Shown here: in pieces, positions 11,011 to 18,948 of the stretch
How positions within the stretch are numbered: the first letter of the stretch is position 1
Layout: each line of letters opens with the position of its first letter
Assembly: GCA_009840355.1 (NCBI GenBank)
Contig: VXNZ01000030.1
Span: 1 to 35,762, forward strand
DNA length: 35,762 bases
Direction: 5' to 3'
Source of the DNA: Chloroflexota bacterium
GTDB taxonomy: Bacteria > Chloroflexota > Dehalococcoidia > Lucifugimonadales > JADFKI01
Position numbers and translations under genes: made by a program
Notes under the pieces: model-generated
What the model saw: the letters and a program-made list of their open reading frames with translations, nothing else
Told to the model about the DNA's origin: nothing
Database searches by the model: none

Positions 11011-11225
11011 GATTTTCCTCCGATGTGATTCGACATTGATATTGAAGCGAATAATAGGGACTTGGAACGGTTGGTATGCTAACACACTGCGCCGGCAAGA
11101 TGCGCCGCGCAGTCATCATTTGCATTTTCCTGCCGTCTGTATCATCATTAGCCAAACGATATAGGACGATTTATATTCTTATGCGTATTTGAGAAACAAC
11201 CTCAAATTCGAATGGAGATAATTGA

Positions 11226-13796
11226 ATGCGTAATCTGCTGGCTGGTATAAATTGGAAATCGGCGGCGCTTCTGCTTGCGGCGGTAAGCGCGCTGCTTGCG
11301 CTGATGATGTGGATGCCTGCAAGCAGCGACCGCGCTCATGCGCAGACGCCGGACGGGGATGGGCTGATTTTCGAAAACATGGACGAATGGCTTAATGAGC
11401 TCGCGCGACAACACGCGAACGGAGAGTTCATTTCGAGCACCTTCTCGGGGAACGGCATCACGAGCGACGGCGGCTCCGTAGGCGTAATTTTCCATACGGA
11501 AAGCGGAACTTCGGAAGGCGTGCGGGACTTTCTGCTGCAGAACGGGGCTTCGCCGGGTCCCGCGTTCGACGAATTCGTCGGGGCGAACGTGCCGGTCAGC
11601 TTGCTGGCTGAAGCGTCGCGGCAGGACGGCGTGAACTGGATGCAGACAGACTTCCCGCCACGCGCGCTCGATGACGATTCCGATGGCGGAGAAGCAATCA
11701 GACACGGCGTCGATGTATGGCACGCCGCGGGACTAAAAGGGGCGGGCGTGAAAATCGCGGTGATACACTTCGGTTTCGAGGGAATTCAGGACCTGATGGG
11801 GACGGAATTGCCGCAGACGGTGACGGCAAGATGTTACACGGGATACGGCGCCTACGAGACCGCCATCGAACACTGCGAGAAAGGACAAGCCGGCGGAACC
11901 ACCAGGCTGCAAAGGATATTCGACGTTGCGCCCGACGCAACATACTACATCATCACGATAACGGACAGGGTGGACTTGTACGACGCAGCGCATTGGATGG
12001 GAGAGGAGGGGATAGACATAGTCAACAACTCGATTATATGGATTTACTCGGGACCCGGCGATGGCACATCTCCCTATTTCCTAAGCGAACTCAGCAGCGT
12101 GGACATTGCGATAGAAGGCGGAGTTACATGGGTCATGCCTGCGGGCAACGATGCCCAAGCAACTTGGTTCGGCGCATTTCGCGACGACGACGACGACGGC
12201 TACCACGAATTCGACGACGGCAATGAATGCAATGGAGTCGAAGCGCGACAACCTGGCGGTTGGGCTTATGTGGGCGTGATTCGATGGGAAGGCAAGTGGA
12301 CTGGACCGGTCGATCCGCTGACGAACAGAGACTTGCAACTGCAAATGGTCGACGAAGAGACTTCGACTCTCCTCAGGCGGAGTCACCGCTCCTTCCGCGT
12401 GATAAACGCACCGATAGAATACTTATACTTCTTCCCCGCCCCGGATAGGAATTACTGTCTCAGGGTGAAATTGGTTGAGGGAACGGCGCCGAACTGGATA
12501 CAAGTGCAGTCATTCTTCGGCCAAGAGTTAGAGCAGCCTAGCCTTTCCGGCGGCATCGTAAGCCCGGCGGAGAGCAACAACCCCGGCATGATTTCAGTAG
12601 GCGCCGCTTCACCGGACAACCCTGACGAAATCTGGGAGCGCAGCAGCCGCGGCCCCGCGCCGGAGCCGTGGCCCAGGGGCAGGATCAAGCCTGAGCTAGT
12701 TGCAGGGCTCAGATTCGACGCCACCCAGCCCCTATCAATGCGGGGAACAGGCTGGGCAGCCGCCTATGTAGCCGGCATCGCGGCGCTCGTAAAGCAGCGC
12801 TTCCCGGAGTACAGCCCCGAAGAGGTCGCCGACTATCTGAAGTCTAACGCCGAAGACAAGGGCGAACCCGGCCCGGACAACACCTGGGGCTACGGACAGG
12901 CGACGCTGCCCGCGTCTGACGCCGCCGCGCCGCTCGACCCGGACGCCTGCATACAGCGGATTTACGGCAGTCACACCATCGAGGCAAGCTGGGACGACAA
13001 CTGCCTGTCCGAGAACAGGCCGGACGGCGATGAAGGGACCGGCGAAGGCGACTACTACGCGCGCTTCTACACGCTCGCGGTGGGGGCGGGCAAGAGGCTG
13101 ACAATCGACCTGACCTCGGATCACGACGCGTACCTGTACCTGATGCGGGGCGAGGGCAGAGAAGGCTCGATTGCGGCGAGCAACGACGACAGCGTGCCGT
13201 ATATCGATTTCAACTCCCGCATAGTGATAGACGGATTGAGGGCAGGCGAATACACGATAGAGGCAACGACGTATGAGCCTGAGAAAAGCGGCGCATTCAC
13301 GCTTGTCGTGCAGATAGACGATACGGACACCGAGCCGGAGCCTGCGCCGGCGCCAAGTGGACCGTTCACCGAGTTCAGCCGCGGCACAGACCATGCATGC
13401 GCCCTGCGCTCCGATGGCAGGATAGCGTGCTGGGGTGATGACGAACACGGCCAGGCATCGCCGCCGGCCGGCCGATTCAGCGCCGTAAGCGGCGGTGAGA
13501 ATGGCAGCTGCGCGCTGCGCGACGACGGCGCGGCGATATGCTGGGGCATCTTCGAGGTCAGTCCTTCGTTTGACGACACAGCATCGGGTCCGTTCACGGA
13601 GGTGAGCCGCGGCGCAGACCATGCATGCGCGCTGGGCGCCGCCGGCGCGATAACCTGCTGGGGCGCGAACTCGCATGGGCAGGCATCGCCGCCGGACGGC
13701 GAATTCAGCGCCATCCACAGCAGCATAGGCGGCAGTTGCGCACTGCGAAGCGACAACGCCCTAGTCTGCTGGGGAAGCTTCGATGTCAGACCGTAG
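11226..13796 (+). CDS. secreted subtilase-fold pseudoprotease with PPC-like domain and RCC1-like repeats
   Basis: An 856-residue exported protein. A signal peptide spans about residues 1-39 (hydrophobic 12-30, A-H-A before Q40). A peptidase S8-like domain spans about 155-545, but the three catalytic positions are changed. The Asp motif reads A-V-I-H-F-G-F (His181), the His motif reads G-G-T-T before FDVAPDA (Gly223), and the Ser motif reads G-T-G-W-A-A-A (Gly509). The oxyanion Asn308 (AGND) is kept. A PPC-like beta domain follows (about 605-698), then a Pro/Glu linker and four RCC1-like repeats (713-856) with paired cysteines (CAL...CWG). Binding rather than proteolysis is inferred. GGAG lies eight bases before the ATG. 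A very acidic Asp-rich loop at 320-331 may bind calcium. Confidence 0.85.
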   Translation: MRNLLAGINWKSAALLLAAVSALLALMMWMPASSDRAHAQTPDGDGLIFENMDEWLNELARQHANGEFISSTFSGNGITSDGGSVGVIFHTESGTSEGVRDFLLQNGASPGPAFDEFVGANVPVSLLAEASRQDGVNWMQTDFPPRALDDDSDGGEAIRHGVDVWHAAGLKGAGVKIAVIHFGFEGIQDLMGTELPQTVTARCYTGYGAYETAIEHCEKGQAGGTTRLQRIFDVAPDATYYIITITDRVDLYDAAHWMGEEGIDIVNNSIIWIYSGPGDGTSPYFLSELSSVDIAIEGGVTWVMPAGNDAQATWFGAFRDDDDDGYHEFDDGNECNGVEARQPGGWAYVGVIRWEGKWTGPVDPLTNRDLQLQMVDEETSTLLRRSHRSFRVINAPIEYLYFFPAPDRNYCLRVKLVEGTAPNWIQVQSFFGQELEQPSLSGGIVSPAESNNPGMISVGAASPDNPDEIWERSSRGPAPEPWPRGRIKPELVAGLRFDATQPLSMRGTGWAAAYVAGIAALVKQRFPEYSPEEVADYLKSNAEDKGEPGPDNTWGYGQATLPASDAAAPLDPDACIQRIYGSHTIEASWDDNCLSENRPDGDEGTGEGDYYARFYTLAVGAGKRLTIDLTSDHDAYLYLMRGEGREGSIAASNDDSVPYIDFNSRIVIDGLRAGEYTIEATTYEPEKSGAFTLVVQIDDTDTEPEPAPAPSGPFTEFSRGTDHACALRSDGRIACWGDDEHGQASPPAGRFSAVSGGENGSCALRDDGAAICWGIFEVSPSFDDTASGPFTEVSRGADHACALGAAGAITCWGANSHGQASPPDGEFSAIHSSIGGSCALRSDNALVCWGSFDVRP

Positions 13797-13854
13797 AGAG
13801 TAACGCGGCACGACTCCGCATCTTAATCACAGCCTGCCATCATGCCGACACACG

Positions 13855-13887
13855 GCGTAAGGGCGACTCTTGTGGTTGCCCTTACGC
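13855..13887. terminator. hairpin between convergent genes
   Basis: A perfect 10-bp stem, GCGTAAGGGC (13855-13864) and GCCCTTACGC (13878-13887), with a 13-base loop, sits between the subtilase-like gene and the convergent PIG-L gene. No long T tract follows on either strand, so termination strength is uncertain. Confidence 0.5.
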
Positions 13888-14619
13888 TCAGCGGCGGAAT
13901 TTGATGCGCTTGAACGCCTCGGCGAATTGAATGCCCATGCCCTTGCCGCGTTCGCGCTTCCATGCGCCCATGCGCTCGTGCGCCCAAGCCGCGTCGTGCC
14001 CGTCCATCTGTGACACATGCTCCATCAGCGCGTTGATGGAAGTGTCCATGTGCTGCGTTACATCCACAAACAAGTCAGGCTCCGGATGACCCATAATCCA
14101 AACTTCGGCGACTTTGTGCGGTTCGAAGCCTGCCTCTAGCAGGTCGGGGAATGTCATGTGGTCGCGCGCGGTGGGGAATACGGCTTGCAGCGCGGCTTCG
14201 CCCGCCGCGATGTGGTCGGGATGCCCGACGCCAAAGCCGCCGTCCAGGTTGCGCATCGGGTACATCGTGATGAGCACATCAGGCTTGTGGCGGCGTATCT
14301 CGCGCGTGATGTCTTTGCGCAGCTCCAACGTGGGCTGCAGCAGGCTGTCCTCGTAGTCTAGAAACACCACATCCTTGAGACCGAGCACCTTGCCCGCGTT
14401 AATCTGCTCTTGGCGGCGAATTGCGGCGAGTTCCGCCTGCGTGATTTCGCGGTCGCTGCTGCCCTTGCTGCCGTCCGTGCACATCACATACACCATTTCC
14501 CAGCCCTCGGCGCAAAGCTTCGCCACCGTGCCGGAGCAGCCGTATTCTGCGTCGTCGGCATGCGCTATAACCACCATACCACGCGAAAATTGTTCTTCGT
14601 TATTATCCGTAGTTGTCAT
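13888..14619 (-). CDS. PIG-L family deacetylase
   Basis: A 243-residue zinc-dependent N-deacetylase of the PIG-L/LmbE family. The metal motif reads AHADDAEYG, with His20, Asp22 and Asp23 (the usual AHPDD with Ala for Pro). The second motif GHPDHIAAG gives His133, Asp135 and His136. The family removes acetyl groups from N-acetylglucosamine conjugates or acts on other amides; the substrate here is unknown. It converges on the subtilase-like gene. The start is uncertain: GGAG lies about 13 bases from ATG 14619, and a later Met15 is possible. Confidence 0.88.
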   Translation of the reverse strand: MTTTDNNEEQFSRGMVVIAHADDAEYGCSGTVAKLCAEGWEMVYVMCTDGSKGSSDREITQAELAAIRRQEQINAGKVLGLKDVVFLDYEDSLLQPTLELRKDITREIRRHKPDVLITMYPMRNLDGGFGVGHPDHIAAGEAALQAVFPTARDHMTFPDLLEAGFEPHKVAEVWIMGHPEPDLFVDVTQHMDTSINALMEHVSQMDGHDAAWAHERMGAWKRERGKGMGIQFAEAFKRIKFRR

Positions 14620-14760: not shown

Positions 14761-14839
14761 ATTTCGCATGTCTGCGATAGACTATGCACCGAGTAAATCC
14801 GGTATTTATCAGAGGTGCGTCTTGCAGGCAGAATCCGAA

Positions 14840-16045
14840 ATGCGATATGACGGCGCGCTGTCCGACCTGCGCGTGCTGGACTTCACGCACTACATCGCCG
14901 GACCGTACACGACCAAGTTGCTGGCGGACTACGGCGCCGATGTGTTGAAGGTCGAACGCCCCGAAATCGGCGATGGCGCGCGCCGCATGGGCCCGTTCCC
15001 CGGCGATGTGCCGCACATCGAAAAGAGTGGCACTTTCCTGCACCTCAACACGAACAAGCGCAGCATCACGCTCAATCTGAAGTCGCAGCAGGCGCAGGAC
15101 ATCATCAAGCGGCTGGTCAAAAATGTCGATGTGGTCGTGGAGAGCTTTCGTCCGGGGCAGATGGCGGCATACGGGCTGGACTACGCCGCGCTGCGCGCCA
15201 TCAATCCGCAGATTGTCGTAACATCCATATCCAACTTCGGGCAGACCGGCCCGTACCGCGATTTCCGGTCATCGGACTTGATGATATACGGCATGGGCGG
15301 CGAGATGTATTCCACCGGGCTGGAAGACCGTGAGCCGCTGAAACTCGGCGAGAACGTGGTGCTGTATCAGGCGGGCGCAATAGCAGCTACAGCCACGATG
15401 GGAGCGGTCTTCGCGATTGGCAGCCAGCATGTGGATGTGTCGCTGATGGAGACGCAGGTCGGCACGATAGACCGCCGCATGAGCATGCTGCTCGCGTACC
15501 AGTACAATGGCGAAATCTCTAAGCGCAGCGCGACAGCCACAGCGGGCGGTTACCCCAACGGCGTGTTCATCTGCCAAGACGGCTATGTGCAGATTGCGGG
15601 CGGGCGCAACTATTTCGACCGCGTAGTGGCGATGATGGGCGCGCCCGACGAACTGCTAGACGAACGCTGGTACGCGCCCGAAGCACAGTACGACCCGGAG
15701 CTTAAAGACGAATTCAGCGCATACTTCATCCCTTGGTGCCTCGAGCGCACAAAGCGCGAAATCTGGCAAGCGGCACAAGAAGCCGGCGTGCTGAGCGCCC
15801 CCATTAACGCCGCGTCCGACCTAATCAACGACACGGGAATCCAAAGTCGCGGCGCCTTCGCTGAAATCGATCATCCCGCCGCCGGCAGCCTGCTATACCC
15901 GGGCCGTCCCTTCATAATGCAAGAATCGCCCTGGTCAGTTCGCCGCCCCGCCCCCCTGCTTGGTGAGCACACGGAAGAAGTGCTCACCGCGCTAGGCTAC
16001 GCAAAAGACGACATCGAACAGTTGCGGCGGCAGGGCGTCATTTGA
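14840..16045 (+). CDS. CaiB/BaiF class III CoA-transferase, catalytic Asp not conserved
   Basis: A 401-residue class III CoA-transferase fold: LRVLDFTHYIAGPYTTKLLADYGADVLKVE (CoA-binding start, about residues 10-39), SFRPGQMAAYGLDY, and late LLGEHTEEVLTALGY. In family members an Asp four residues before a Gly (D-x-x-x-G) forms the acyl/CoA anhydride. Here the aligned stretch is V-L-Y-Q-A-G, giving Leu175; Glu171 is nearby. It may be the non-catalytic half of a heteromer with the next gene (66 bases on, same strand), or act differently. The start is uncertain: ATG 14840 gives the family N-terminus, while ATG 14768 and TTG 14822 are in frame. Confidence 0.85.
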   Translation: MRYDGALSDLRVLDFTHYIAGPYTTKLLADYGADVLKVERPEIGDGARRMGPFPGDVPHIEKSGTFLHLNTNKRSITLNLKSQQAQDIIKRLVKNVDVVVESFRPGQMAAYGLDYAALRAINPQIVVTSISNFGQTGPYRDFRSSDLMIYGMGGEMYSTGLEDREPLKLGENVVLYQAGAIAATATMGAVFAIGSQHVDVSLMETQVGTIDRRMSMLLAYQYNGEISKRSATATAGGYPNGVFICQDGYVQIAGGRNYFDRVVAMMGAPDELLDERWYAPEAQYDPELKDEFSAYFIPWCLERTKREIWQAAQEAGVLSAPINAASDLINDTGIQSRGAFAEIDHPAAGSLLYPGRPFIMQESPWSVRRPAPLLGEHTEEVLTALGYAKDDIEQLRRQGVI

Positions 16046-16060
16046 GAGGCTCACACAAAA

Positions 16061-16096
16061 TGATTGGATAGGGGAAGGTGATTGGATGGGGGAAGG
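16061..16096 (+). repeat. 18-bp tandem repeat, two copies
   Basis: TGATTGGATAGGGGAAGG (16061-16078) is followed directly by a copy with one change (16079-16096). Each unit carries a GGGGAAGG purine tract resembling a ribosome binding site. It lies between two CoA-transferase genes, upstream of ATG 16112. Confidence 0.7.
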
Positions 16097-16111
16097 TTAC
16101 AAGGGGTGAAA

Positions 16112-17422
16112 ATGGCAGACCACAAAAAACTGCCGCTCGAAGGCATTCGCATATTGGATATGACCGTCGTCTGGGCGGGCACTTACTGCGCCACGCTGCT
16201 CGCCGACTTAGGCGCGGAGGTCATACGCTTAGAATCGATCAAGCGGCTGCCGCCCATCACGCGCGGATACATCCCGTATCCGCCAAAGGAAGTCATCGAA
16301 GGGCTGCCGGCGTTCGTCGCGGCGATGCCCGGACGCGAACCCGGCAAGCGCCCTTGGAATCGCTACCCGCTGTTCAACGCGCACGGGCGCAATAAACTCG
16401 GCATCACAGTCGATCTCACGCAGCCATCCGGCATGGATATATTCAAGCGTCTGGTTGCCGTCAGCGACGCCTTCGTGGAGAACAATGTCACCGAGACGAT
16501 GGACAAACTCGGCATATCGTACGAGATGATGCGCGACATTAATCCCCGCATTGTGATGCTGCGCATGCCCGCATACGGCAACACCGGCGCGTATCGCAAC
16601 TTCCGCTCGCTAGGCGTCCACATGGAGGGCGTCATCGGACACACCATCGTGCGCGGATACGAAGATATGGACCAGTCGTCCAGCACTAATGTGTACGCTG
16701 CGGACGCTGCGGGCGGCGCGCAGGGAGCGTTCGCCATGCTCGCCGCCCTGCACTTCCGCAAGCGCACCGGCAAGGGGCAGCTTATCGAACTGGCGCAGGC
16801 GGAGAACATGATCTCCTACACCGGACAATTCTTCATGGACTACGCGATGAACGGTCGCGACAGCGGCACGATAGGCAACCGCCACACGAGCGCCGTTCAG
16901 GGTTGCTATCCGTGCGCCGGCGACGACCGCTGGGTGAACATCACGCTGTACGACGATGACAACTGGGCGGCGTTCCGCAACGCCATAGGCAGCCCCGCAT
17001 GGACGGACGACGACCGATTCGCCACGCACTCAGCCCGCTACGAAAACCAGCGCGCGATGGACGCGCACATCGCCGATTGGACACGCCGGCACGACCACTA
17101 CGAAGTGATGCACTGCCTGCAGGCGGTAGGCATCGCCGCCGGTCCCGTTATGGACCAGAAAGACGCCTTCGCCGACCCGCACCTGCAAGAACGCGGCATG
17201 TTCGAGGAGGTGTATCACGAAGACGTGGACGGCTCGCACCTGTACGTGGGCGCGCCCTACAAGATGTCTGACATGCCCATAACAATACGCAGCGGTCCGG
17301 TCCAACTAGGCGCGGACAACGAGTATGTCTATAAGAAGGTGCTGGGCGTGAGCGACAAAGAGTACGCAGAGTTCGAGCGGCAAGGGCATATCGGCATGGA
17401 TTTCCCGCACGATGGGGAATAG
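16112..17422 (+). CDS. CaiB/BaiF class III CoA-transferase
   Basis: A 436-residue class III CoA-transferase. The opening LEGIRILDMTVVWAGTYCATLLADLGAEVIRLE (about 9-41) is the CoA-binding Rossmann-like start. Asp198 in Y-A-A-D-A-A-G-G fits the catalytic Asp, and HFRKRTGKGQLIELAQAE follows as in active members. It transfers CoA between carboxylic acids; the substrates are unknown. ATG 16112 is preceded by AAGGGGTG (16101-16108); the frame also contains an earlier TTG 16082. It forms a likely operon with the preceding CoA-transferase, which lacks the Asp, so a two-subunit enzyme is plausible. Confidence 0.9.
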   Translation: MADHKKLPLEGIRILDMTVVWAGTYCATLLADLGAEVIRLESIKRLPPITRGYIPYPPKEVIEGLPAFVAAMPGREPGKRPWNRYPLFNAHGRNKLGITVDLTQPSGMDIFKRLVAVSDAFVENNVTETMDKLGISYEMMRDINPRIVMLRMPAYGNTGAYRNFRSLGVHMEGVIGHTIVRGYEDMDQSSSTNVYAADAAGGAQGAFAMLAALHFRKRTGKGQLIELAQAENMISYTGQFFMDYAMNGRDSGTIGNRHTSAVQGCYPCAGDDRWVNITLYDDDNWAAFRNAIGSPAWTDDDRFATHSARYENQRAMDAHIADWTRRHDHYEVMHCLQAVGIAAGPVMDQKDAFADPHLQERGMFEEVYHEDVDGSHLYVGAPYKMSDMPITIRSGPVQLGADNEYVYKKVLGVSDKEYAEFERQGHIGMDFPHDGE

Positions 17423-17492
17423 GCGAGCCTGAAGAGCGCTCGAAAGCCCTCGCGTCAATGGCTGACTAACGACAACGGACACATCGCCTAGC

Positions 17493-18644
17493 CTATTCCA
17501 ACGGCGGTATCACGCCGCCCGCCCGCAGCGAGTCTATCTCATCCACTTCATATCCCAACTCCAGAAGCACCGCCTCCGTCTCCTCGCCAAATGTGGGCGT
17601 TGTGCCTAGCATTGGTTGCGTCTTGCTTAGGCGCGGCGCGACTCCGGCGTGCGTAACTTGCCCTAGCCCTGCGACATCTTCATTGACGATAAGTCCGCGC
17701 TCTCGCGGATAGTCGTCGTTTAGGATGCGGTCGATGTCGTCGTTGCGCGCCGCGTCAATACCGGCGGCGCTTAGGTCGTTCAGCCAGTCCGCGACAGTTC
17801 GCGTGAGGAATACCGCGCCAAGTTCTTCGCACAGCGCGGCGTCGTTCTGCGTTCGCAGCGCGTCAGTGGCAAACTCATCCCGCGCTGACAGATGCTCGAA
17901 CGCGGGCATATTCATCAGCGCGTCCCAACCTGCATCAGCGATGACAAGCCAGCCGTCCGCCGCTTCGTACAACCCGTTGAGCGCGTTTGACCCGCGCGCG
18001 TCCAGTCCCTCGGCTTCGTTGCGCTCGTAGCCGTCGTGGTCGATGAGAAACGGAGACGAGAATGTGGACCCTGTCTGCGCCAGCGATGTGTGCACGAACT
18101 GCCCCTTGCCCGTGCGCCGCCGGTGCAGCAGTGCAAGCATCACGGCGTACGCGCCCATCAACCCTGTGCCGTAGTCGTTGAAGGTATAGGGCGAGTGGAT
18201 GGGCTTTTCGCCGCGTCCGCCATTGCGAACCTGCACGCCGGTCGCCGCCTGCGCGTTCTGCTCGTAGCCCGGGCGATTCGCCCAATCGCCATCCTGCCCG
18301 AACGCGTTGATGGCGAGATACACGATGTCCGGCTTGCGCTCGCGAAGCTGCTCATAGCCGATTCCCAGACGCTCTGCGACGCCTTTGCGGAATCCGCCCA
18401 GCACGACATCGGCGGTATCAACCAGCCGCAGAAAGACTTCAAGCCCTTCCGGCTTAGTGATGTCGAGGCAGATGCTGCGCTTGCCCCTGCCCACATCGGA
18501 GAGCTGGCGGTCGGACGGCGGTCGAAGCCAGCTGTCAATCTTAATGACCTCCGCGCCATACTCCGCAAGCGTTCTGCCGCAAGTCGGCCCCGCGAGAATG
18601 ATGCACAAGTCAAGCACCCGTATTCCACTAAGCGGCATATTCAT
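17493..18644 (-). CDS. CaiB/BaiF class III CoA-transferase
   Basis: A 383-residue class III CoA-transferase, convergent with the previous two. LSGIRVLDLCIILAGPTCGRTLAEYGAEVIKID opens the protein. Asp157 in F-N-D-Y-G-T-G matches the catalytic Asp, and LLHRRRTGKGQFVHTSLAQ follows. ATG 18644 has GGAGG eight bases upstream; the frame continues to 18911 but that extension shows no family similarity. Substrates are unknown. Compared with its neighbours it is shorter, and it has its own upstream region shared with a small Tat-signal gene on the other strand. Confidence 0.9.
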   Translation of the reverse strand: MNMPLSGIRVLDLCIILAGPTCGRTLAEYGAEVIKIDSWLRPPSDRQLSDVGRGKRSICLDITKPEGLEVFLRLVDTADVVLGGFRKGVAERLGIGYEQLRERKPDIVYLAINAFGQDGDWANRPGYEQNAQAATGVQVRNGGRGEKPIHSPYTFNDYGTGLMGAYAVMLALLHRRRTGKGQFVHTSLAQTGSTFSSPFLIDHDGYERNEAEGLDARGSNALNGLYEAADGWLVIADAGWDALMNMPAFEHLSARDEFATDALRTQNDAALCEELGAVFLTRTVADWLNDLSAAGIDAARNDDIDRILNDDYPRERGLIVNEDVAGLGQVTHAGVAPRLSKTQPMLGTTPTFGEETEAVLLELGYEVDEIDSLRAGGVIPPLE

Positions 18645-18786
18645 CCTGGCTGCCTCCGTTGTTCTAGCGGCGTTTAGTATTACAGCATCGCAGTAAAGCT
18701 CCAGCCTGTTGCGAATAGGATAACAGACATAATTGCTAATTGTGCTTTGCTTATGGCAGATATTGCTTATACGCGCTGCCCACAAC

Positions 18787-18844
18787 TTGCCCCAAGAGCG
18801 CGCCGTTGAGTATAATGATTGCCGCAAAGTCAGCGCAAAGTCAG
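18787..18844 (+). promoter_or_regulatory. promoter with an 11-bp tandem repeat at the start site
   Basis: TTGCCC (18787-18792) and a perfect TATAAT (18811-18816) are 18 bases apart. Right after, CGCAAAGTCAG is repeated exactly twice, head to tail (18823-18833 and 18834-18844), covering the expected transcription start. The arrangement suits a repressor site for the small Tat gene 105 bases on; the regulator is unknown. Confidence 0.5.
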
Positions 18845-18948
18845 CAAATAATACCGGCAGCGAATTGCACGCGGCCGCAGACTTGGCACACACAGATTCA
18901 AGCACACACAACCATCAACACGCACACACGCGAAAGGGCAGACACAGC

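Follow-up and report, generated by a model that had tools for sequence, protein, structure and literature searches.

A secreted subtilase homologue with all three catalytic residues replaced, probably kept for a non-catalytic role, in a Chloroflexota bacterium

The gene at positions 11226–13796 (forward strand) of the window analysed here, a stretch of 35,762 nucleotides from a Chloroflexota bacterium that is probably a symbiont, encodes a protein of 856 amino acids that belongs to the S8 peptidases by sequence and by its oxyanion Asn (Asn155 of subtilisin), but lacks the Asp/His/Ser triad. This raises the question of whether such a gene is a duplicate on its way to decay, an enzyme with a rebuilt active site, or a protein maintained for something other than catalysis. 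The evidence set out below makes it likely that the product is a secreted pseudoprotease, which arose by duplication within its own family and was retained to bind or regulate something.

Domain layout and catalytic columns

The reading frame is intact from ATG to stop over 856 codons, as the preliminary description had it, and has the layout of an exported protein, with a pseudo-subtilase followed by a PPC domain and an RCC1-like tail. A putative signal peptide (residues 1–39, 11226–11342; all features of the gene lie on the forward strand) ends in the cleavage motif AHA↓QT, read by eye, the QT of which lies at the equivalent place in many paralogues. Next comes a prodomain-like region (residues 49–148, 11370–11669), defined from the family alignment, conserved across the family and matched by no Pfam model; S8 was the sole family-wide Pfam domain in a scan of 20 members. 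Peptidase_S8 (PF00082) scores 61.4 bits against a cut-off of 21.8, with its best stretch at residues 445–557. The alignment places an insert of approximately 125–135 amino acids between the oxyanion and Ser motifs (residues 316–440, 12171–12545), dividing the S8 domain into an N-terminal half, recognised from alignments and a Foldseek search with a partial model (residues 160–315, 11703–12170), and a C-terminal half identified by Pfam (residues 441–560, 12546–12905). Behind these lie the PPC domain (PF04151, 30.4 bits; residues 613–680, 13062–13265) and four RCC1-like repeats with paired cysteines (RCC1_2, PF13540, 71.6 bits against a cut-off of 22; residues 712–852, 13359–13781), which begin at residues 725, 762, 801 and 838. 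The PPC-like domain and the four repeats, first read from the sequence alone, are borne out by Pfam and by the motif count.

The catalytic columns were located in a full-length alignment of 20 S8-bearing homologues from five genomes of the genus, in a 46-row family alignment that adds 25 members belonging to other families within the order, and by comparison of the family profile with subtilisin BPN', where the motifs VID, HGT, AGN and GTS fall on those of Asp32, His64, Asn155 and Ser221. By the alignments and the BPN' profile, His181 (11766–11768) stands in the column of the catalytic Asp32 and Gly223 (11892–11894) in that of His64, while Asn308 (12147–12149) occupies the Asn155 column and Gly509 (12750–12752) takes the place of Ser221. 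The three replacements and the retained oxyanion Asn are exactly those named in the preliminary description, and the profile alignment restores no Asp, His or Ser to the catalytic columns. Misalignment of the triad was ruled out, as the columns agree in the 46-row alignment and against BPN', and so was chance or sequencing artefact, the identical replacements (H/G/G) being found in a homologue from another genome of the genus. No replacement triad was found elsewhere among the clade-specific residues.

The same columns bear on whether the protein could be a hydrolase of a different kind, with an active site assembled from clade-new residues in the same cleft. His181 is shared with the homologue L052, and Trp510 and Tyr514, which follow Gly509 where the family has Gln and His, are both new and shared, but the catalytic motifs hold no clade-shared new Ser or Cys and the nucleophile position is Gly; this explanation is very unlikely. 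The subtilase domain would instead be expected to fold and be unable to cleave, because nucleophile, general base and orienting acid are all replaced; in the absence of autoprocessing, the N-terminal prodomain would stay attached.

A model of residues 49–568, made from an alignment of distant subtilases fetched by motif and without the genus paralogues, is partly confident (mean pLDDT 54, pTM 0.57), and its best PDB matches in Foldseek are subtilisins (E 5e-8, TM 0.62 by target). It lends support to the subtilisin fold, which had been predicted to remain, and not to how the cleft or the insert is built. Among solved structures the S8 profile matches Tk-SP (3afg) best, and the insert shows a weak match to the C-terminal beta domain of that enzyme (profile positions 311–402 against 3afg 454–535, 10.4 bits); Tk-SP differs in being an active enzyme, and in carrying its beta domain after the protease domain rather than within it.

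Family placement and the order of triad loss

The wider family looks active. All 18 other genus paralogues carry D/H/S, and 17 of these 18 intact paralogues have the oxyanion Asn, the exception being L047, which has Asp there. Of the 25 sequences drawn from the order's other families, D/H/S is present in 24, and the remaining one (L084, from G187 of the same order) has E/H/S, with Glu for the catalytic Asp and both His and Ser retained. The two remaining genus homologues come from G001, a second species of the genus: L052, 62% identical to the protein studied here, has the same H/G/G and keeps the Asn, and L053 reads S/P/S, also with the oxyanion Asn.

In a maximum-likelihood tree built from 46 S8 domains, these two and the present gene form one clade (100/99), corresponding to one state change on the tree, within which the gene groups with L052 (100/100). 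The nearest relatives are accordingly pseudoproteases, not intact-looking enzymes. In a class-wide search, the best matches outside the order scored far below the clade members. L047 is sister to the degenerate clade (100/97), a placement made less sure by its long branch. This gene (L047:3726–5840, minus strand, in G001) has an intact triad, Asp at the oxyanion position and an N-terminus without prodomain, and adjoins a Cache-PPC-RCC1 protein with the identical tail type.

Taken together, the sequences place a small pseudoprotease lineage inside an expanded family of active-looking S8 proteases. The preliminary description had spoken of three independent losses; the three replacements are real, but loss of the triad was probably stepwise, because L053 is without Asp and His and retains Ser. 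The lineage would have originated by duplication within the large genus family of intact-triad S8 proteases, with Asp and His gone from each of the three clade members and Ser lost in the common lineage of the present gene and L052.

The clade has three members in two genomes only. L053 is the positional homologue in G001, flanked by genes for an acyl-CoA dehydrogenase and purB on one side and a PIG-L deacetylase on the other; L052 lies elsewhere in G001, outside the interval between purB and PIG-L. In G002, which the neighbouring genes (93–98% identical) mark as the nearest genome, a membrane protein gene adjoins PIG-L instead, and no close homologue was found in that genome, which is 80% complete. 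The gene is an accessory, lineage-specific member of its family, given its placement in G001, the different gene beside PIG-L and the lack of a close homologue in G002. The contents beside PIG-L (in the window, purB to PIG-L at 11085–13888) vary among species, comprising an S8 pseudoprotease, a membrane protein or a PPC protein, and across the window, G001, G002 and G004 this interval may be a variable site. Further along the window, three CoA-transferase family III genes are clustered at 14768–18911.

A contig scan for close relatives returned four loci, with the match confined to the tail, and a profile search of viral contigs found no relative. Elsewhere in the family, L054 and L055 of G004 are 97–99% identical in their prodomain, PPC and RCC1 parts and 80% in their S8 domains, a pattern suggestive of gene conversion or of a diversifying protease domain.

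Constraint on the gene

If the gene were a decaying duplicate, an S8 paralogue without function that drifts and is open by accident, its amino acid changes should tell. They are indeed faster than in the neighbouring genes, and presence within the genus is patchy. In comparisons with L052 (NG86), the S8 part has a dN of 0.24 and a dS of 1.69, the prodomain region 0.36 and 1.52, the PPC domain 0.30 and 1.27, and the RCC1 region 0.26 and 0.82, whereas dN for neighbouring genes between the same two genomes is 0.06–0.09, three to six times lower than in the pseudoprotease. The corresponding dN/dS, however, is about 0.14 for the S8 part and approximately 0.1–0.3 across the four regions, all well below 1, although dS is near saturation and the ratios are rough. 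Close intact pairs gave an S8 dN/dS of approximately 0.3–0.4, at lower divergence. Judged from these comparisons, the protein evolves faster than its neighbours, yet under clear constraint, moderate in degree.

Simulation argues in the same direction. Under neutrality, 0.1 substitutions per site introduce approximately six stops per 856 codons, and none of 300 runs at 0.1 or more substitutions per site kept an open frame, whereas all three clade genes have open frames despite near-saturated synonymous sites. The RCC1 repeats have also been retained, with four in all three clade members against one or two, by the same motif, in intact RCC1-bearing paralogues. Decay was rejected on the open frames, the dN/dS and the common H/G/G replacement, shared with a homologue only 62% identical, and is very unlikely. 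The gene encodes a protease homologue that lacks the catalytic residues and is maintained by selection, and in these respects it fits the description of a pseudoprotease; the initial reading of selection rather than decay withstood the comparisons of alignment, relatives and dN/dS, with the drift simulation in agreement.

The constraint is distributed differently from that of the active-looking relatives. There are 163 positions at which 15 or more of 16 intact paralogues agree; the present gene keeps 122 of them, L052 124 and L053 128 (75–79%), and held-out intact members keep 82–99% of theirs. Within seven residues of the catalytic columns, the protein and L052 share 62% identity, compared with 67% over other positions, whereas intact pairs are 66% identical near these columns and 55% elsewhere. 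The balance is reversed: catalytic constraint has gone while constraint on the fold is kept, and the surplus conservation round the catalytic site is missing while the rest of the protein is still constrained. The protein is probably kept for a binding or regulatory job, because a related species carries the identical three replacements.

Candidate roles and known pseudosubtilases

What such a job might involve is suggested first by the tail. PPC-RCC1 tails of this kind also stand behind Cache domains in G000 (the source genome), G002 and G001, with Cache scores in the first two just under the Pfam cut-off, and RCC1 repeats lie behind a trypsin-like domain in G004, which suggests a tail module common to exported proteins with sensing, binding or cutting roles. 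Among solved structures, the RCC1-like tail is most closely related to BLIP-II (1jtd, 3qhy; E 4e-13), which forms a complete seven-bladed propeller. The present tail has paired cysteines and, by motif, only four repeats, short of a closed seven-bladed structure. Literature on sponge Chloroflexi with RCC1 proteins yielded nothing specific. That proteins of the genus carry this tail behind a variety of N-terminal domains would fit an adhesin whose working part is the RCC1-PPC tail, with the dead S8 domain as no more than a spacer, but the S8 domain (66% identical to L052) is at least as conserved as PPC (60%) and RCC1 (65%), and this account is unlikely. For a pseudoprotease retained as a binding protein, the PPC and RCC1-like tail would hold or present the subtilase body outside the cell, and that body, with its jelly-roll-like insert, would offer a surface to which a peptide, some other ligand or an active S8 paralogue could bind. 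The binding or scaffold role proposed at the outset may reasonably be entertained.

Dead proteases of a similar kind are already known, for example CspC of Clostridioides difficile, which together with CspA offers the nearest known mechanism; the present protein most likely works in a like manner, arrived at independently. In CspC and CspA a prodomain precedes a subtilase domain that carries a jelly-roll insert, catalytic residues are missing, and in CspC the prodomain is left unprocessed (PMC6636752); CspA and CspC pair into a stable heterodimer, which acts upstream of CspB, an active protease (PMC12880746). The likeness lies in bacterial pseudosubtilases with a prodomain or prodomain-like region and an insert in the subtilase domain, which in the Csp proteins is a jelly-roll of approximately 130 amino acids. 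The insert here is of about that size and place, its fold not being confident in the model. Ser has become Gly in CspC as at Gly509, and both proteins are kept beside an active paralogue. Unlike the present protein, in which all three triad residues are changed, CspC keeps Asp105 and has two replacements (G485, T170), and the Csp proteins act in spore germination and are described without PPC or RCC1 parts. As no Csp chain is among the best 60 of 101 PDB matches of the S8 profile, the likeness is taken as one of layout, convergent, and membership of the Csp family is not claimed.

A more specific form of the pseudoprotease explanation is that the protein, as decoy or partner, controls or blocks one of the active S8 paralogues. 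The source genome encodes three intact same-family paralogues (L048, L049, L050) and additionally one S8 protein of another type. These three have the prodomain region and an S8 domain with the same insert, at 41–43% identity over the matched region, but differ in their intact D/H/S and in other tails, without the four-repeat RCC1 region. The prodomain region and insert, contact surfaces in the Csp proteins, are kept in the present gene, and pseudosubtilase heterodimers have published precedent (PMC12880746). Against this, the intact paralogues lie on other contigs, with no gene linkage, and the proposal is tentative and less likely than not. That the pseudosubtilase is a sensor or regulator of the same bacterium's active S8 paralogues, and so an independent invention of a Csp-like arrangement, is a more speculative and rather doubtful extension; if true, a Chloroflexota-like lineage only distantly related to the spore-forming clostridia would have invented the control of a protease by a pseudoprotease.

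An automatic label of "S8 family peptidase" would mislead for this gene. Few bacterial pseudoproteases have a readable history. Here an intact family, an S/P/S member and two H/G/G members stand side by side in one genus, so that the order of loss becomes visible, as does the release of catalytic constraint. The origin of pseudosubtilases such as CspC can thereby be compared with a second, independent case.
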